Part shown: positions 38,926-51,160 of the stretch, one piece after another
Layout of the letters: each line of letters opens with the position of its first letter
Position numbering within the stretch: the first letter of the stretch is position 1
NCBI RefSeq assembly: GCF_000964085.1
Contig: NZ_JZRB01000058.1
Location: 1 to 64,000 of the forward strand
Length of the DNA stretch: 64,000 bases
DNA from: Luteibacter yeojuensis
GTDB taxonomy: Bacteria > Pseudomonadota > Gammaproteobacteria > Xanthomonadales > Rhodanobacteraceae
Reading direction: 5' to 3'
Program-made: the position numbers and the translations under genes
The notes under the pieces: model-generated
Database searches by the model: none
Seen by the model: the letters and a program-made list of their open reading frames with translations, nothing else
Told to the model about the DNA's origin: nothing

Positions 38926-40083
38926 ATGAGCGACACCACCACCGCCCCGGCCGGCCCGAAGCCGAAGAAATCCGTCGCCCTCTCGGGCGTGGCCGCGGGC
39001 AACACCGCGCTTTGCACGGTCGGCCGCAGCGGCAACGACCTCCACTACCGCGGCTACGACATCCACGACCTGGCCGCCAAGGGCTCGTTCGAAGAAGTGG
39101 CCTACCTGCTCGTCCACGGCGTGCTGCCGAACTGGACCGAACTGAACGCCTACCGCGCCAAGCTCAAGCGCCTCCGCGGCTTGCCGGCACCGGTGAAGGG
39201 CGCCCTCGAACTGCTGCCTGCCGCCACGCACCCCATGGACGTGATGCGCACGGGCGCCTCCATGCTCGGCACCGTGCTGCCCGAGAAGGACGACCACAAC
39301 GTCACTGGCGCGCGCGACATCGCCGACCGGCTGATGGCCAGCTTCGGCTCCATGCTGCTGTACTGGTACCACTTCAGCCACAACGGCAAGCGCATCGAGA
39401 CCGAAACCGAAGACGACACCATCGCCGCGCACTTCCTGCACCTGCTGCACGGCAAGAAGCCCAGCGACCTGCACGCCCACGCGCTCGATCGTTCCCTCGT
39501 GCTCTACGCCGAGCACGAATTCAACGCCAGCACGTTCACCGCGCGCGTCATCGCCGGCACCGGCTCGGACATGTACTCGTGCATCACCGGCGCCATCGGC
39601 GCGCTGCGCGGCCCCAAGCACGGCGGCGCGAACGAGGTGGCGATGGAAATCATCGCGCGCTACCGCGACGCGGCCGAGGCGGAAGCGGATATCCGCGCCC
39701 GTGTCGAGCGCAAGGAAATCATCATCGGCTTCGGCCATCCGGTGTACACGGTCTCCGATCCGCGCAACGAGATCATCAAGGAGGTCTCGCGCAAGCTGTG
39801 CACCGACGGCGGCAACCCGCGGCTGTTCGAGGTCTCGGAGAAGATCGAGAAGCTGATGTGGGAGCTGAAGAAGATGTTCCCGAACCTGGATTGGTACTCG
39901 GCATCGGCGTACCACATGATGGGCGTGCCGACGGCGATGTTCACGCCGTTGTTTGTCATCGCGCGCACGTCGGGTTGGAGCGCCCATGTGATCGAGCAGC
40001 GCCAGGACGGCAAGATCATCCGCCCAAGCGCAAACTACACGGGCCCGGAAGACCAGTCCTACATCCCGATCGAAAAGCGCTGA
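38926..40083 (+). CDS. prpC: 2-methylcitrate synthase
   Basis: 385 residues with a citrate-synthase fold: [12 protein letters not shown] near residue 37, [12 protein letters not shown] near residue 226 and the catalytic [16 protein letters not shown] near 264. It condenses propionyl-CoA with oxaloacetate. The short length and the order prpB-prpC indicate a methylcitrate rather than a citrate synthase. AAGGAG lies just before the ATG. An intrinsic terminator follows at 40135-40164. Confidence 0.95.
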
Positions 40084-43354: not shown

Positions 43355-43536
43355 AACGGACGTGATCGGTTCAGTTTGCGAAAACCGGTGAAATGGCGTC
43401 GTGGCGCGGTCTCGCGCCCCGCGCGACCGAAGGCACGCTAATTGCTCCCTCCTGTGACCCGGCGCGTTGGCAGGACGCATCGGCCACCCCCGATCCAACA
43501 GGGGAACCACGTCGCTCGCTCACTGGAGACTCTCCC

Positions 43537-44469
43537 ATGCGTAAGACCCTCATCGCCACGGCGATCTGCCTCGCTATCGGATTCGCACTGCCGGCCATGG
43601 CCGACGACACCCAGACGGGAGCCGCTGGCCCGTCCGCCCAGCGTCATTCCACGGCCCAGGCCTGGACCGATAGTGCCAATGACAACTCCACGCGTAACAG
43701 CTACAACACCAGCAACTGGACGGCCACCAGCTCGTTCAACACCAGCACCAGCAACGCGGTCAACGATGTCACGTTGAACGGCGCGGTCTCGGGCAACGAG
43801 ACCTATAACTTCGGCAACATCGCGGCCAACATGGGCAACGCCAACGGCGCCCGAGGTGGTGCGGGCGGTGACGCGACGGGTGCCAACGGCCGTGGCGCGG
43901 CTGGCGGTGACGGCGGCAACGGCGGACGCGCCTCGTCACACGGCGCGGTCGGCGGCGACGCTGGCAGCTGGAACGGCGGCTCGGCCGGTGAAAGCTACGC
44001 CGACGGTGGCAACACGAATGGCGACGGCGGCAATGCCGGCCGTGGCAACGCCAGCTCGCGCGCGAACGGCCGTGGCGCCGATTCGTCCACGGGCGGATCC
44101 ACCGCCAGCACGGGTGGCGCATCGGCTAGTGCCGGTGGCGCGACGACGTCTGGTGATTCGTCGCCGACGTCGACGAGTGGTTCGGCTACCGGCGGCGCCG
44201 GCGGCACGGCGTGGGCCATGGGCGGCACCGGTGGTGAAGGTGGGGCGGGTGGTTCGGGCACTGGCGGCGGCAACTCCGGCGGCGCCGGCGGTAGCGGCGG
44301 CATGGGCGGCTCGAACGGCGTGAGCACTGGCGACTTCAACATGTCCAACACCATGTCGGCTTCGGCATCGGGTGCGGCGGGCGTGCTGAACCTTGCGCAG
44401 AGCTCGGGCGCCAACGCGCTCATCCAGCAGGCCGTGAACGTCCAGGCCAACCTGAACGTGGGTCAGTAA
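43537..44469 (+). CDS. Gly/Asn/Ser-rich exported protein, candidate amyloid subunit
   Basis: 310 residues from the ATG at 43537 (GGAG 9 bases upstream). Residues 1-22 form a signal peptide (..FALPAMA). An Asn/Ser/Thr-rich region follows (about 45-95), then about 160 residues of Gly, Ala, Ser and Asn in irregular GG-rich runs (about 97-265), and a C-terminal block GVLNLAQSSGANALIQQAV. The pattern NFGNIAANMGNANG near residue 89 recurs in the next protein (SIGNGANNMGDAA). Composition and neighbours fit a subunit of a functional amyloid or surface fibre of the FapB/FapC kind, but no cysteine motif CxxC of FapC is present. Function is inferred, not shown. Confidence 0.6.
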   Translation: MRKTLIATAICLAIGFALPAMADDTQTGAAGPSAQRHSTAQAWTDSANDNSTRNSYNTSNWTATSSFNTSTSNAVNDVTLNGAVSGNETYNFGNIAANMGNANGARGGAGGDATGANGRGAAGGDGGNGGRASSHGAVGGDAGSWNGGSAGESYADGGNTNGDGGNAGRGNASSRANGRGADSSTGGSTASTGGASASAGGATTSGDSSPTSTSGSATGGAGGTAWAMGGTGGEGGAGGSGTGGGNSGGAGGSGGMGGSNGVSTGDFNMSNTMSASASGAAGVLNLAQSSGANALIQQAVNVQANLNVGQ

Positions 44470-44555
44470 GCGCACGCACGTAGCGACGGAACCACGGGGC
44501 GCCCTTGTGGCGTCCCGTGGAACTCGAAGGGCACCCCAGCCTCAGGAGCACACCC

Positions 44556-44918
44556 ATGCCGATGTTCCGACCCCACACCGCGTACGTGGCGCTGGCGTTG
44601 CTGGCGACAGGGCTCGCGGCAGGCGCCGCGCATGCCACGCCGCCGGGCGAGCCACCGCCGTCGTTCGGCACCGCCACGCCGGTGGACCAGTTGCAGGCCA
44701 TGACGGGCGGCACGGATACGCACGTCACGAACAACAGCGTCACCAACCAGGAAAGCCACGGCACCGTCGATAACAATTCGAATTTCAGCATCGGCAACGG
44801 CGCGAACAACATGGGAGATGCCGCGCTGAGCGGCACAGGCATCATCACCGGCATCCAGAATTCCGGTAACAACGTCCTCATCCAGAACAACACGATCGTG
44901 ACGGTGAGGATGCAGTGA
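44556..44918 (+). CDS. Small Asn-rich exported protein of the Fap-like locus
   Basis: 120 residues from the ATG at 44556, with AGGAG 7 bases upstream. A signal peptide (about 1-27) is followed by a proline-rich stretch and VDQLQAMTGGTD, whose Gly-Gly at 51-52 resembles a double-glycine processing site. The remainder is Asn/Gly/Thr-rich (NNSVTNQESHGTVDNNSN) and ends with IQNSGNNVLIQNN, matching the C-terminal motif of the 310-residue protein. It may be a minor fibre or nucleator subunit (FapB-like). It overlaps the C39 peptidase gene by one base. Confidence 0.6.
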   Translation: MPMFRPHTAYVALALLATGLAAGAAHATPPGEPPPSFGTATPVDQLQAMTGGTDTHVTNNSVTNQESHGTVDNNSNFSIGNGANNMGDAALSGTGIITGIQNSGNNVLIQNNTIVTVRMQ

Positions 44919-45601
44919 TGAAGCTGGCCTGCGCCCTCGCCGCCTGCCTCGCCCTGGCGAGCCCGTTCGCCATCGCAGGCAAGGCCGAGGTGCAGACCAG
45001 CCCGGGTGTTTCGTACCCGATGAAGTTGACCAGCCTGAAAGAAGCCCGCTTCCGCAACACCATTCGCCAGAAATACGACTTCAGTTGCGGCTCGGCGGCG
45101 GTGGCCACGTTGCTCACTTACCAATACGCGTACCCGGTCGACGAGCAGTCGGCATTCGACATCATGTTCACCAACGGCGATCGCCGGAAGATCTCGCGCG
45201 AGGGCTTTTCGCTGCTCGACATCAAGCGCTTCCTCGCGTCGCGTGGCTTCCAGGCTGATGGCTTCACCGTTCCGCTGGAAAAGCTGGACGAAGAGGGCAT
45301 CCCTGCCATCGTGCTGATCGACGAGCGCGGCTACCACCACTTCGTCGTCGTCAAAGGCTACAAGAACGGCCGCGTGCTCATCGGCGACCCCGCCCGTGGT
45401 ACGCGTTCCATGTCCAAACGGCGCTTCGACGACATGTGGAAGAATCACATCGTCTTCGTCATACATAACGAACGCGACCGCGCCATCTTCAACAGTCCGC
45501 GCGACTGGGCAGTCGCGCCCGCGGCACCGATCACCGAAGGCATCGAACGCAATGGCCTCGGTCCCATCGTCATGCCCAAGCGCGGACCGGGGGATATATG
45601 A
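44918..45601 (+). CDS. Periplasmic C39 family peptidase, FapD-like
   Basis: 227 residues from the ATG at 44918 (GAGG 8 bases upstream). A signal peptide (about 1-20) precedes a stand-alone C39 domain with no ABC transporter. The catalytic set is complete: oxyanion Gln51 and Cys57 in RQKYDFSCGSAA, His141 in YHHFVVV, and Asp157 in IGDPARG. C39 enzymes cut after a double glycine, and two neighbouring exported proteins carry such a motif. Stand-alone C39 proteins of this type occur as FapD in Fap amyloid operons. ATGA overlap with the next gene. Confidence 0.75.
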   Translation: MKLACALAACLALASPFAIAGKAEVQTSPGVSYPMKLTSLKEARFRNTIRQKYDFSCGSAAVATLLTYQYAYPVDEQSAFDIMFTNGDRRKISREGFSLLDIKRFLASRGFQADGFTVPLEKLDEEGIPAIVLIDERGYHHFVVVKGYKNGRVLIGDPARGTRSMSKRRFDDMWKNHIVFVIHNERDRAIFNSPRDWAVAPAAPITEGIERNGLGPIVMPKRGPGDI

Positions 45602-46110
45602 GCACCCGACGAATCCTCATCGCCACGGCGATCGCCCTGGCTGCCTGTGGCGGTGCACACGCCGCCGACTTCCCCGTCAATCACGCCGTGCCCGACGAGC
45701 GGCTGGACGCGATCCGAGGTGGCTTCGACATGGGCTCGTTCCAGGCGTCGCTTGGGCTTGAGCGCACGGTGATGATCAATGGCGTTGAAGCGATCCGCCA
45801 GACCGTCAACATACCCGATGTGACGAAAATCACCGCCGACCAGGCCACGGCCATGCAGGCCTTCATGGGTACGACGTTCGTGGCGAATGGCAATACAGGG
45901 GCTGCGACCAGTGCACAGGCCCCCGGCTTGTCGAGCGTCACCCTGCCCACCAGCGTCTCGCCTGGCTTGGTGGTGCAGAACGCGCTGGACAACCAGGCCA
46001 TTTCGGCTACGACGAAAATTGATGCCTCGGTGAACACCTCGCAGATGTTGCAGGGGTTGCGTATCGACGAAGCTATACGGGACACGACGATCCAGTTCCG
46101 GGGGAACTAA
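45598..46110 (+). CDS. Exported protein with double-glycine motif, FapE-like
   Basis: 170 residues. Residues 1-23 form a signal peptide; then VPDERLDAIRGGFD has Gly-Gly at 41-42, in the same [VP]-[DE]-x-L-x-A-x-x-G-G-x-D frame as the preceding 120-residue protein. The rest is Ala/Thr/Val-rich with VVQNALDNQAISATTKIDAS near residue 124 and a C-terminal IRDTTIQF. The position between the C39 peptidase and the barrel protein matches FapE. Its exact role is unknown. Confidence 0.55.
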   Translation: MSTRRILIATAIALAACGGAHAADFPVNHAVPDERLDAIRGGFDMGSFQASLGLERTVMINGVEAIRQTVNIPDVTKITADQATAMQAFMGTTFVANGNTGAATSAQAPGLSSVTLPTSVSPGLVVQNALDNQAISATTKIDASVNTSQMLQGLRIDEAIRDTTIQFRGN

Positions 46111-46113
46111 CGC

Positions 46114-47517
46114 ATGTATCGCAACGGCAGGGTGATGCAGGCAAAAACGTGCGTGGGCGCCTTGTCGCTCGCGGTGCTCCCGATGTGGATTGGGGCATGC
46201 CTTGCGCAGGATGCCGCGCCGGTCGACCCGGCGCTGCGTGAGAAGATCGAAGCGCAGGGCCGCAAGATCGACGCGATGCGAAGCCGCATGGCGGAGCAGC
46301 TCGCCGAGCTTGAGCAGATGAAGCGCGAGCTGGCGTCGCAAGAGGTCGCGTACAACGACTTGCGCAAGGCCGTCGGCATGACAGCCCTGGAGGAGGCGCG
46401 TGCGACAGGCGCACCGCCTGCCGCAGGGGCACAGGCTAGCGCAGCGCCGCCGCAGGACCAGGTGCCGCCGGGCACGCCGGCGCCAGGCGCGCCGGTGGCA
46501 CCGGCATCGCAACCGGTAGCGGCCACGCAGCCCGTGGGCAAGCGGCCCGAGACGGACGAGCGCCCGCCTGAGGTCGCGCCGATCTTCGACCAGCCTGGCG
46601 TGCTTACCCCGCGTGGCAAGCTCATCGTCGAGCCCTCGTACCAGTATGGCTATTCGTCCAGCGACCGCGTATCGCTGGTGGGCTATACCGTCATCCCGGC
46701 GATCCTTATCGGCCTGGTCGATGTCCGCCAGGTAAAGACCACGACGCAGACCGGCGCGGTCGCGTTCCGCTACGGCCTGACGAACCGCATGGAACTTGAG
46801 GTCCGCGTGCCGTATGTCGACACGCACACGGATACGATCAGCCGCGAGATCTTCACTGGCACGGCACAGGACAACCTGTTCACCACGAGCGGCAAGGGCA
46901 TCGGCGATATCGAAGCCACGTTGCGCTACCAGATCAACGATGGCGGCGCCGACAAGCCGTATTACATCGGCTGGTTCCGCGCCAAGTCGCGCACGGGCGA
47001 AGACCCGTTCGAAGTGACCAGCGATTGCGTGACGCGATGCCTGCAGAACGTGACAGGCACCGGGCTGCCGCTCAAAAGCCCCACGGGTTCCGGCTTCTAC
47101 TCCGGTCAGCTCGGCCTCACCTGGTTGTACCCGTCCGATCCGGTGGTCTTCTTCGGCAACTTCAGTTACCTGCACAACTTCGAGCGCAAGAACGTCAGCC
47201 GCAACGTGCTCGGTTCCGGCAAACAATTCCTTGGTGACATCAAGGCGGGCGATATCGCCGACATCAGCATCGGCATGGGCTTGTCGCTCAATGAGAAGGC
47301 ATCGATCAGCATCGGTTACGACCAGGCATTCGTAGGCCGCACGCAGCAGAACAGCCATCCCATCCCTGGTTCGGCGCGCTCGACGCTGGGTTCGCTGCTG
47401 ATCGGCGGCTCGTATCGTTTCAACGACAAGGAAACGATGAACATCACGCTGGGCGTTGGCGTGACCCGCGATACCCCGGATACCACCGTGACGGTACGCG
47501 TGCCCATCACGCTCTAA
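46114..47517 (+). CDS. Outer-membrane barrel with N-terminal coiled coil, FapF-like
   Basis: 467 residues. A signal sequence (about 1-31) is followed by a coiled coil at about 38-88 (EKIEAQGRKIDAMRSRMAEQ and LEQMKRELASQEV), a Pro/Ala-rich linker (about 98-145), then a beta-barrel region with alternating aromatic residues and a C-terminal strand ending TTVTVRVPITL. This layout (coiled coil, linker, barrel) is that of FapF, the secretion channel for Fap amyloids. The barrel could also belong to the wider phenol-degradation MetA-type family. An alternative start is at 46135. Confidence 0.65.
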   Translation: MYRNGRVMQAKTCVGALSLAVLPMWIGACLAQDAAPVDPALREKIEAQGRKIDAMRSRMAEQLAELEQMKRELASQEVAYNDLRKAVGMTALEEARATGAPPAAGAQASAAPPQDQVPPGTPAPGAPVAPASQPVAATQPVGKRPETDERPPEVAPIFDQPGVLTPRGKLIVEPSYQYGYSSSDRVSLVGYTVIPAILIGLVDVRQVKTTTQTGAVAFRYGLTNRMELEVRVPYVDTHTDTISREIFTGTAQDNLFTTSGKGIGDIEATLRYQINDGGADKPYYIGWFRAKSRTGEDPFEVTSDCVTRCLQNVTGTGLPLKSPTGSGFYSGQLGLTWLYPSDPVVFFGNFSYLHNFERKNVSRNVLGSGKQFLGDIKAGDIADISIGMGLSLNEKASISIGYDQAFVGRTQQNSHPIPGSARSTLGSLLIGGSYRFNDKETMNITLGVGVTRDTPDTTVTVRVPITL

Positions 47518-47729: not shown

Positions 47730-48584
47730 ATGCGCATTCGCAATTTTGGTCGTGGCAAGGCCGTGGTCGGCCTCGCCATCGCATCGCTCGCTGTCTTCGG
47801 TGCTGCCGCGCATGCGCAGGACAGCGAGAAGAAGTCCCAGTCCCCCGCGCTCGACAACGTCAGCGTCTGGGTCGGCGGTTACTACACCTCCAACGACACG
47901 ACCCTGGGCGGCCAGACCCAGTTCTTCAACAGCAATGGCAAGGTGAACTTCGAGGACGACCTCGATTTCAAGAAGCACAAGACCGTGCCGCGCGTCCGCC
48001 TCGATTTCCTCATCGGCGAACACCAGGGTTTCGCGTTCGACTGGTACGAGGTGGATCGTTCGCACTCGCGCACGTTCAATGAATCGACCACCGTGATGGG
48101 CCAGCCGATCACGGCCTCGGCCTTCGCCAAGGCCGACCTGAAGTTCAGCTTTGGCAGCGCGGCCTACAAGTGGTGGTTCGGCACGGGCGACGACGTGTTC
48201 GGCGTTGGCCTGGGTGCGGCGTACTACAAGGTGAAGGGCAGCATCGAGGGCTCGGTCACCGCGCTGGGCCAGACCCAGTCGACCAGCACCTCCACCGACA
48301 TCGACGCCTGGGCGCCCAACCTGCAGCTGGGCTGGCGCCACGCGTTCAACGACCAGTGGCGCATGTATGTCAATGCGTCGGGCGTCAAGAAGAACGGCGG
48401 CCAGCTGTATGGCCACATCTTCGACACGGCGATCGGCCTTGAATGGTTCCCGTGGCAGAACGTGGGCTTTGGCGCCGAATACGCTTACACTCGCATCAAG
48501 CTGCACCAGGACAAGAGCCGTTACGATCTTGACCTGGACATGAAGCTCAACGGACCGGCCGCCTACGTGCGCTTCCGGTTCTGA
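47730..48584 (+). CDS. Outer-membrane beta-barrel protein of unknown function
   Basis: 284 residues from the ATG at 47730 with TTTGGGAG upstream; a TTG at 47724 is in frame. A signal peptide (about 1-30) leads to a repeated aromatic/charged beta-strand pattern from SVWVGGYY to the C-terminal PAAYVRFRF, which ends in Phe as outer-membrane barrels do. It has no cysteines in the mature part. The spacing and its own terminator suggest a separate transcript from the Fap-like genes. Porin or sensor-like roles are both possible. Confidence 0.7.
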   Translation: MRIRNFGRGKAVVGLAIASLAVFGAAAHAQDSEKKSQSPALDNVSVWVGGYYTSNDTTLGGQTQFFNSNGKVNFEDDLDFKKHKTVPRVRLDFLIGEHQGFAFDWYEVDRSHSRTFNESTTVMGQPITASAFAKADLKFSFGSAAYKWWFGTGDDVFGVGLGAAYYKVKGSIEGSVTALGQTQSTSTSTDIDAWAPNLQLGWRHAFNDQWRMYVNASGVKKNGGQLYGHIFDTAIGLEWFPWQNVGFGAEYAYTRIKLHQDKSRYDLDLDMKLNGPAAYVRFRF

Positions 48585-49671: not shown

Positions 49672-49708
49672 CCCGGGTTTCCCAACCACCCCCTCGCGAG
49701 TGAAGCCC

Positions 49709-51160
49709 ATGAGCGCACACGACATCCGTTCCGCCACGCGTCCCGACCCGGACCAGCCGATGGTGGACATCGCCAACTACGTGGCCGATTACCAGATCGA
49801 CTCGCAGGAGGCCTACGACACCGCGCGCTACATGCTGCTCGATTCGCTGGCCTGCTCGGCGCTGGCCATGAAGTTCCCCGACTGCGTCAAGCACCTCGGC
49901 CCCATCGTCCCGGGCGCCTCCATGCAGGGCGGCGTGCGCGTGCCGTTCACCTCGCACGAGCTCGACCCGGTGCAGGCGGCGTTCGCCATCGGCACCCAGG
50001 TGCGCTACCTCGATTTCAACGACACCTGGCTGGCCGCCGAGTGGGGCCACCCCTCCGATAACCTCGGCGCCATCCTGTCGGTGGCCGACTACCTCTCGCG
50101 CAAGGCCGTCGCCGAAGGCGGCAAGGCGCTCACCGTGCGCGACGTGCTCGGCTACGCCATCAAGGCCCACGAGATCCAGGGCTGCTACGCCCTCAAGAAC
50201 AGCTACAACCGCGTCGGCCAGGACCACGTCATCCTGGTGCGCCTCGCTTCCACGGCCGTCACCACGGCCATGCTGGGCGGCGACAAGGAACAGATCACCA
50301 CGGCTGTCTCGCACAGCTGGATCGACAACGGCGCCCTGCGCACCTACCGCCATGCCCCGAACACCGGCCCGCGCAAGAGCTGGGCCGCGGGTGACGCCTG
50401 CCGCCGCGCCGTCACCCACGCCATCAACGCCGTGTACCGCAACGTGGTCGGCTACCCGTCGGCGCTCTCGGCGAAGACCTGGGGCTATTACGACGTGGCC
50501 TTCAAGGGCAACGCCTTCCAGTTCGAGCGCCCGTTCGGCAGCTACGTCATGGAGAACGTGCTCTTCAAGATCAGCTTCCCGGCCGAGTTCCACGCCCAGA
50601 CGGCCGTGGAGTGCGCCATGCAGCTGCATGCCGAGGTCGGCCACCGCCTCGACGAGGTCGAGCGCGTGGAGATCCAGACCCAGGAGGCCGGTGTCCGCAT
50701 CATCGACAAGACCGGCCCCCTGGCCAACTACGCCGACCGCGACCATTGCATCCAGTACATGACGGCCGTGCCGCTCATCTTCGGCCGCCTCACCGCCGAT
50801 GATTACAACGACAGCGTGGCGGCCGATCCGCGCATCGACGCGCTTCGCGAGAAAATGACGGTGGTCGAGAATCCGCAGTTCACCAAGGATTATTTCGACC
50901 CCGAAAAGCGTTATATCGGTAATTCGGTGCAGGTTTTCTTCAAGGACGGCACAAGCACGCAAAAAATCTCGATCGATTTCCCGATCGGCCACCGTAATCG
51001 CCGGGCCGAAGGTATTCCGGTTCTCCTCAAAAAGTTCGAGGCCGCACTGCGTGCCGAGATGGCTGCCGACCGGGTTGAGAAGGTGCTCAGCATCACCGGG
51101 AGCCCCGAAAAGCTCGACGCGATGCCCGTTCACGAGTTCATGACGCTCTTCACGGCTTGA
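49709..51160 (+). CDS. prpD: 2-methylcitrate dehydratase
   Basis: 483 residues from the ATG at 49709, the length of E. coli PrpD; a GTG at 49700 is in frame. MmgE/PrpD family signatures: RYLDFNDTWLAAEWGHPSDN near residue 90, GLMEIQGC-type KAHEIQGCYALKNSYNR near 150 and the catalytic SLTAKTWGYYDVAF-like segment SAKTWGYYDVAF near 256. It dehydrates 2-methylcitrate, the step between PrpC and an aconitase. It lies 9.6 kb from prpC, separated by unrelated genes. Confidence 0.95.
   Translation: MSAHDIRSATRPDPDQPMVDIANYVADYQIDSQEAYDTARYMLLDSLACSALAMKFPDCVKHLGPIVPGASMQGGVRVPFTSHELDPVQAAFAIGTQVRYLDFNDTWLAAEWGHPSDNLGAILSVADYLSRKAVAEGGKALTVRDVLGYAIKAHEIQGCYALKNSYNRVGQDHVILVRLASTAVTTAMLGGDKEQITTAVSHSWIDNGALRTYRHAPNTGPRKSWAAGDACRRAVTHAINAVYRNVVGYPSALSAKTWGYYDVAFKGNAFQFERPFGSYVMENVLFKISFPAEFHAQTAVECAMQLHAEVGHRLDEVERVEIQTQEAGVRIIDKTGPLANYADRDHCIQYMTAVPLIFGRLTADDYNDSVAADPRIDALREKMTVVENPQFTKDYFDPEKRYIGNSVQVFFKDGTSTQKISIDFPIGHRNRRAEGIPVLLKKFEAALRAEMAADRVEKVLSITGSPEKLDAMPVHEFMTLFTA

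Follow-up and report, generated by a model that had tools for sequence, protein, structure and literature searches.

Here we describe five exported-protein genes located at 43537–47517 of the window, by which we mean the whole analysed stretch of 64,000 nucleotides from Luteibacter yeojuensis (contig NZ_JZRB01000058.1, forward strand). The locus looks like a third branch of FapD/FapF-type export systems, relatives of Pseudomonas Fap. All five genes are on the + strand and encode, in order, a Gly-rich protein of 310 amino acids (aa), likely an abundant fibre or matrix subunit (gene 1, 43537..44469); a small protein of 120 aa with a double-glycine leader (gene 2, 44556..44918); a stand-alone periplasmic C39 peptidase of 227 aa (gene 3, 44918..45601); a protein of 170 aa in the FapE position behind the peptidase, also with a double-glycine leader (gene 4, 45598..46110); and a FapF-type outer-membrane barrel of 467 aa with an N-terminal coiled-coil-like stretch (gene 5, 46114..47517). 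On inspection of the sequence, the N termini of all five products are signal-peptide-like. The stop of gene 2 and the start of the C39 gene share 1 base and the C39 stop and the start of gene 4 share 4 bases; gaps of 86 and 3 bases separate gene 1 from gene 2 and gene 4 from the barrel gene. The first-pass annotation of this DNA, made from the letters alone, had placed the same five frames with the same lengths. The overlaps that it reported do couple genes 2, 3 and 4, while the barrel gene follows after a short gap.

The product of gene 3 is the only one of the five named by Pfam: it scores 72.2 bits against PF03412 (cut-off 22) and carries the catalytic Gln, Cys, His and Asp of the family. 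Its best match among solved structures is PDB 6mpz, a double-glycine-motif protease domain (E 2.3e-10). Residues Gln51, Cys57, His141 and Asp157, the last three already pointed out in the first pass, are invariant in 21 orthologues; when the comparison is widened to 68 C39 sequences they are kept in 67, with L190 left uncounted. In NCBIfam the protein reaches 140.2 bits with FapD (NF058616, equivalog cut-off 330) and 136.2 bits with FilB (cut-off 475); though below both cut-offs, these two are by profile score its nearest named relatives. The barrel gives a similar picture, with 134.5 bits against FapF (NF058560, E 4.3e-39, cut-off 700) and 42.4 bits against FilC (cut-off 630), and its residues 149–464 match the FapF structures 5o67 (E 2e-24), 5o65 (E 4.1e-24) and 5o68 (E 2.8e-23). 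The similarity to FapD and FapF that had been proposed as a check is thus what the best named relatives of the two proteins show, while the barrel family proposed along with it, PF13557, is absent from the Pfam result.

A scan of 84,980 species genomes yielded 144 relatives; the best 80 of these 144 and the window make up the 81 loci compared below. The 80 come from Luteibacter, Dyella, Rhodanobacter, Frateuria, Fulvimonas, Variovorax, Rhodoferax, Povalibacter, Dechloromonas and some metagenome bins. The block gene 2–C39–gene 4 keeps its order and its common strand in all 81 loci, and gene 1 precedes it in 78; counting the fused copy of L093, gene 1 is seen in 79 loci, and in L125 and L128 it falls beyond the contig end. 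The barrel gene lies beside the block in 78 loci (60 downstream on the same strand, 17 upstream on the opposite strand and one downstream on the opposite strand), the remaining three being cut by the contig end. Gene order, whose loss in relatives the first pass had named as a ground for refutation, is therefore conserved. In L171 (4988-10370) the block of genes 1, 2, C39 and 4 occurs as a tandem duplicate, with copies near-identical except for the repeat-rich gene 1.

In 61 kin genomes scanned for the C39 and barrel genes, both were matched in the same 34; the same-genus genome G005 has neither. The window type of locus (identity of at least 58%) is present in 30 of the 61, seven diverged copies (37–40% identity) sit in classic-type loci (L041–L047), and genomes G024, G029 and G037 carry both kinds. 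Of 398 genomes sampled across the phylum, 41 give a C39 match. The window-type locus occurs in 16 of the 398 (seven close and nine divergent), as judged by place in the tree except for G037, where identity and gene content decided. Matches at ~62% are found in four Cupriavidus replicons, and G384, a genome outside the class, also has this type of locus. Since the set recurs in Variovorax, Povalibacter and Dechloromonas, as well as in Rhodoferax, Cupriavidus and G384, it is not specific to relatives of Xanthomonadales, and the suggestion of such a restricted branch was dropped.

The main result concerns the leaders of genes 2 and 4. The leader of gene 2 (positions −12 to −1, residues 41–52, TPVDQLQAMTGG, 44676..44711, + strand) ends in LQAMTGG and that of gene 4 (positions −12 to −1, residues 31–42, VPDERLDAIRGG, 45688..45723, + strand) in LDAIRGG. 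In gene 2, Leu −7 and Gly −2 are kept in 81 of 81 loci and Gly −1 in 80; in gene 4, Leu −7, Arg −3, Gly −2 and Gly −1 are each kept in all 81. At −12, a hydrophobic position, Val stands in 62 (gene 2) and 70 (gene 4) of the 81 sequences, and the positions around the invariant residues vary freely; among 56 gene 4 sequences only L36, R40, G41 and G42 are invariant before position 50. Both of the putative double-glycine substrates named in the first pass are therefore present, with conserved motifs. The consensus of bacteriocin-type leaders is LSXXELXXIXGG (PMC6181422). Its frame is recovered here as a conserved pattern, with a hydrophobic −12, Leu −7, a hydrophobic −4, Gly −2 and Gly −1, while Glu −8 is not conserved; the leaders of genes 2 and 4 thus have bacteriocin-type spacing but are located behind a Sec signal peptide. 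An AlphaFold model of gene 4 places a short helix at residues 33–39, directly before the glycines, at low-to-moderate confidence (predicted local distance difference test, pLDDT, 68; predicted template modelling score 0.47), and a Foldseek search of this model against PDB gave no match at E≤0.001. A strict regular expression for the leader behind the peptidase misses 6 of 31 loci of the double-glycine (GG) branch, which show L...RGG otherwise, and one of 10 divergent loci. The latter is L173, whose peptidase and barrel frame are shortened and which looks decayed. The strongest single inference that we draw is that the C39 enzyme would trim the products of genes 2 and 4.

Gene 1 products have a median Gly content of 27% (range 19–36%, 77 sequences), and in divergent loci the core is Asn/Ser/Asp-rich in place of Gly-rich. 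Cysteine occurs in one of 77 gene 1 orthologues, that of L093 (6370-7914, Dyella solisilvae), in which genes 1 and 2 form one uninterrupted frame; this may be a real fusion or an error in the sequence. The window copy has no cysteine and hence no CxxC motif, as had been noted. Gene 1 belongs to no Pfam or NCBIfam family, and for genes 1, 2 and 4 NCBIfam gave nothing better than E 0.07. AlphaFold predicts gene 1 as disordered (pLDDT 42), with only a C-terminal hairpin at 284–300; an N-terminal LxGxV..GNxAxNxG stretch is found by regular expression in 66 of 79 loci. In each of the three exported proteins of genes 1, 2 and 4 the mature part is Asn/Gly-rich. The C termini match between genes 1 and 2 (97.6%) and between genes 2 and 4 (89–94%); the putative fibre or matrix subunits share a C-terminal QNSGxNxLIQ repeat.

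Upstream of gene 1, 90 bases before its start, we found a sigma-54 (−24/−12) promoter sequence, AGGCACGCTAATTGCT (43431..43446, + strand). By sequence match it scores 21 of 22 against the sigma-54 consensus TGGCACGN4TTGCW. Of 77 usable loci, 73 have a site with a score of at least 20 upstream of gene 1 (L051 and L114 were left out, no start being recognised), with a spacer that differs between genera; among 2310 windows of 250 bases drawn at random from these loci the share is 1.9%. For fapA-E of P. fluorescens PF07 an RpoN promoter has been mapped, and the activator BrfA is encoded next to it (PMC9207406). With a sigma-54 promoter, the system would be turned on through an enhancer-binding activator, as fap is in P. 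fluorescens. An activator-like frame is found in 19 of 81 loci and stands beside the barrel gene in 17 (16 of Variovorax type and Dechloromonas L126); the two tested with Pfam, at L106:2696-4201 (−) and L126:11021-12367 (−), have Sigma54_activat and, as front domain, VpsR. A search of the window's genome with PF20161 for a VpsR-type activator gave one match, C76 (4.8e-4), below the cut-off.

A stem-loop with a 12-bp stem lies between genes 1 and 2 (44492..44520, + strand). Measured by z-scores from single-base shuffles, the 75 bases that follow gene 1 fold with z < −2 in 70 of 79 loci; the median is −3.8 and the window copy has −2.3. Behind genes 2 and 4 such a fold is seen in 33 of 162 regions (median −0.9). 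The hairpin is kept in position, not in sequence, across genera, and the window copy has no T-run. It is perhaps an RNA stabiliser or a partial terminator. Its place behind gene 1 fits a higher yield of gene 1, whose share of the message it probably raises.

To place the peptidase among its relatives we built a quick tree of 68 C39 domains, with group labels assigned from locus content. The 31 close members form one group (support 98), eight Fil-like sequences another (support 99), and close and divergent members jointly have support 94, just below the mark of the tool. Gene 3 thus appears in a C39 branch apart from both the classic Fap and the Fil-like sequences, the deep order not being settled by this tree. 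Genome G145 carries, in addition to a GG-type locus (L167), a region with two classic-type FapD genes ~5 kb apart (L172:1-16000).

The point of most weight, absent from the first-pass annotation, is that classic FapE shares the leader, with its last residue changed. In 18 of 18 classic-type cases the protein behind the C39 gene has the same leader frame with Arg or Lys at −1 (examples are DQELAQLRGKY and DSEMAELRGRY); in the FapE of L184 the motif occupies precursor residues 38–40, ~20 residues behind the likely signal-peptide cut. None of the eight Fil-like loci has a FapE-type leader behind the peptidase; in four of them a small exported protein upstream has a leader ending in Gly-Gln, and none was found in the other four. 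Set against the C39 tree, the −1 residue goes with the branch of the peptidase: Gly for GG, Arg or Lys for the classic type (18/18) and Gln for the Fil-like type (4/8). A search of classic FapD for an acidic pocket to account for the basic −1 residue led no further than one acidic difference, at position 188, outside the matched C39 core. In a profile comparison (hhalign probability) the leader region matched that of classic FapE at 74% for the close set, 93% for the divergent set and 91% for the two combined, versus 0.2% with reversed sequences and at most 5.3% with unrelated windows chosen by the same motif. The leader windows were cut around the motif by regular expression, which favours a match, and the unrelated control consisted of 12 draws of the same 11 motif-bearing windows, effectively one control set.

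The explanation that we consider best, with a probability of roughly 0.7, is that C39-trimmed minor subunits and a Gly-rich protein are exported by the FapF-type barrel into a surface fibre or matrix. Transcription would start at the sigma-54 promoter with an enhancer-binding activator, and Sec would export all five precursors. Signal peptidase would leave the products of genes 2 and 4 with an extra N-terminal leader of 20–25 residues ending in Gly-Gly, and the periplasmic C39 peptidase would cut behind these glycines. The trimmed minor subunits and the uncut gene 1 protein would then leave via the gene 5 barrel and build a surface fibre or matrix, possibly with a role in biofilm. The sequences themselves show that peptidase and barrel are homologous to FapD and FapF, that the catalytic residues are intact and that leaders, gene order, promoter and hairpin recur; removal of the signal peptides, the C39 cut, passage through this barrel, fibres and a biofilm role are inferred.

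A number of observations weigh against this reading. Taken singly, the leaders are not significant against shuffles, since 519 of 2000 shuffled sequences (gene 2) and 126 of 2000 (gene 4) score as high; we judge the leaders real because of their conservation across loci, not by the score of a single sequence. The FapE match ends after the leader and the following strand (0.4% beyond), and whole gene 4 matches FapE (14.2%) no better than it does a decoy, the unrelated C39 profile (10.0%). The C termini of genes 1 and 4 do not match each other (0.9%). Compared by hhalign with 92 repeat windows from classic loci, the C termini of genes 1, 2 and 4 gave 0.4, 11.0 and 0.3%, none significant; gene 2 aligns in register with the Fap repeats, at 11% only, and the strict pattern G-x4-N-x3-G-x6-N occurs anywhere in gene 1 in 14 of 79 loci, in gene 2 in 5 of 81 and in gene 4 in 0 of 81. 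Outside the close set the promoter is kept less strictly, a sigma-54 site scoring at least 20 lying within 4.5 kb in 24 of 42 other C39 loci (by a rough estimate ~12 are expected by chance). In the tree, a quick analysis that gave long-branch warnings, the branch with classic Fap on one side has a support of 6. Finally, mass spectrometry of Fap from Pseudomonas UK4 gave no peptides from approximately the first 70 residues of FapE (PMC5557850); this agrees in direction with cutting around residue 40, yet the missing stretch is longer than such a cut calls for.

Three other explanations were weighed against export of trimmed subunits into a fibre or matrix. The C39 protein could act as a chaperone or cut something else, e.g. 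the barrel linker, with the glycines serving as an uncut docking or structural motif. Some C39-like domains only tether their substrates, and cleavage of the FapF linker by FapD has been proposed (PMC5557850). We nevertheless find this unlikely, given that the catalytic residues of the peptidase are invariant in 67 of the 68 sequences (L190 not counted), that canonical leader spacing is found in two otherwise unlike proteins and that the catalytic cysteine of FapD, Cys38, is required for Fap secretion in Pseudomonas (PMC5557850). The product of the same export route may, on the other hand, be a non-fibrous layer or a hydrated Gly-rich glue, in which gene 1 would form a disordered coat with no cross-beta fibres. 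The low pLDDT of the gene 1 model, its median of 27% Gly and its lack of Fap repeats all speak for such a coat. AlphaFold is, however, often unreliable on low-complexity fibre proteins, and the N-terminal LxGxV..GNxAxNxG stretch together with the C-terminal repeat suggests defined assembly ends, which makes the glue quite unlikely in our estimate.

A locus for export of a bacteriocin or microcin, with gene 2 as a double-glycine toxin precursor and the barrel as the exit, is an idea that the pairing of such a leader with a C39 domain, typical of these loci, and the small size of gene 2 readily bring to mind. It is very improbable: the peptidase stands alone and has a signal peptide, the barrel is FapF-like, the leader is present on two proteins, all three exported proteins are Asn/Gly-rich in their mature parts and the C-terminal repeat is common to genes 1 and 2 and to genes 2 and 4. 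As no ABC transporter was seen in the genes next to the C39 gene, the bacteriocin locus was rejected.

As a natural relative with the canonical signal, the locus indicates the matching place in FapE. The target of FapD was called unclear in papers of 2017 and 2018 (PMC5557850; PMC6173800), one of which describes the Fap proteins as lacking canonical C39 sequences; no substrate or cut site of FapD is named in the sections of the Fap literature covered here, and one may be named elsewhere. FapD activity is required for Fap secretion, and the leader gives a candidate site in FapE. FapA-D look unprocessed in mass spectrometry, unlike FapE (PMC5557850; PMC6173800). The FapA proteins of L181 and L184 have a degenerate leader, LSDxDFxxVxSG / LSDLDIGGISSG, which is present in four of four FapA-like frames found by their C-terminal signature (the other loci were viewed by eye). 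We give about even odds to a joint reading in which a single cryptic leader of bacteriocin type, placed after the Sec signal peptide of minor subunits, is recognised by FapD, by FilB and by the peptidases of the GG branch; it would end in Gly-Gly in the GG branch, in Gly-Arg/Lys in FapE and in Gly-Gln in Fil-like loci. In this joint reading FapE would be the substrate of FapD, cut at [DE]xxLxxxRG[RK], which is its boldest step; secretion through FapF-type barrels would be gated by two-step leader removal; and FapA, reported as uncut, would act as a pseudo-substrate that escapes cleavage and modulates FapD.

The FapD/FapF route appears to serve chemically different cargo, Gly-rich here and Asn/Ser-rich in divergent loci, and the exporter is therefore more general than amyloid surveys keyed to Fap repeats show. 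A survey of 2025 retained only genes with homology to Fap repeats (PMC12392863), a filter that would miss the window-type set.

Two features of the surroundings may be added. Directly behind gene 5 is a gene for a small outer-membrane beta-barrel (47730-48584; PF13505 26.8 bits, just below the cut-off). The fibre locus is flanked by a citrate-synthase-family gene (38926-40083) and an MmgE/PrpD gene (49700-51160), ~10 kb apart, which look like parts of the propionate (methylcitrate) pathway.

Fap is among the closest known systems. The likeness includes the FapD-type periplasmic C39 peptidase, the FapF-type barrel, a FapE-position protein that follows the peptidase and whose leader has the same frame, and a sigma-54 promoter, recognised by sequence match in the window and by experiment in P. 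fluorescens PF07 (PMC9207406). There are differences as well. The scores are 140 of 330 bits for FapD and 134.5 of 700 for FapF, gene 4 has no match at E≤1 to the NCBIfam FapE model (NF058559, cut-off 250 bits), and the peptidase is in a separate C39 branch; the major protein is Gly-rich and has no Fap repeats, and the leaders end in Gly-Gly versus Gly-Arg/Lys of Fap. The six-gene order fapABCDEF is replaced by five genes, and no FapA family match was found in NCBIfam among the five proteins. Of the classic-type FapE proteins, L181, L184 and L041 were scored as controls: L181 (347.3) and L184 (345.5) pass the FapE cut-off and L041 (106.7) is below it. L184 passes the FapD (420.2) and FapF (763.5) cut-offs as well, while L041, though classic in type, falls below these too (FapD 254, FapF 392.1). 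The Fap parallel drawn by the first-pass annotation therefore holds for a divergent FapD-type peptidase and FapF-type barrel, and fails in that no counterpart of FapA or of FapB/FapC was detected and three curated Fap cut-offs were missed. Membership in the classic Fap family was rejected on the missed cut-offs, the absent Fap repeats and the lack of FapA.

The Fil system (the ‘putative pilus system’ of NCBIfam FilB/FilC) similarly combines a C39 peptidase with a FapF-type barrel; four of the eight Fil-like loci also have a small exported neighbour whose leader ends in Gly-Gln. The window differs in its scores (FilB 136.2 of 475 bits, FilC 42.4 of 630), in its separate branch (support 99) and in its FapE-type leader behind the peptidase, which all eight Fil-like loci lack; the Fil-like control L179 reaches 291.3 bits with FilB and is itself below the cut-off of 475. 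Curli (Csg), in which disordered repeat proteins are exported across the outer membrane, has a similar general plan; it is not known to have a C39 step, and Pfam and NCBIfam scans of the five proteins gave no Csg homologue. Peptidase-containing ABC transporters and their bacteriocin leaders (6mpz, ComA 3k8u, PCAT1 4ry2) share the PF03412 family and the leader spacing with the locus, whereas the window peptidase has no ATPase part, is predicted to be free in the periplasm and would act on substrates that are first exported by Sec and then exit through a barrel.

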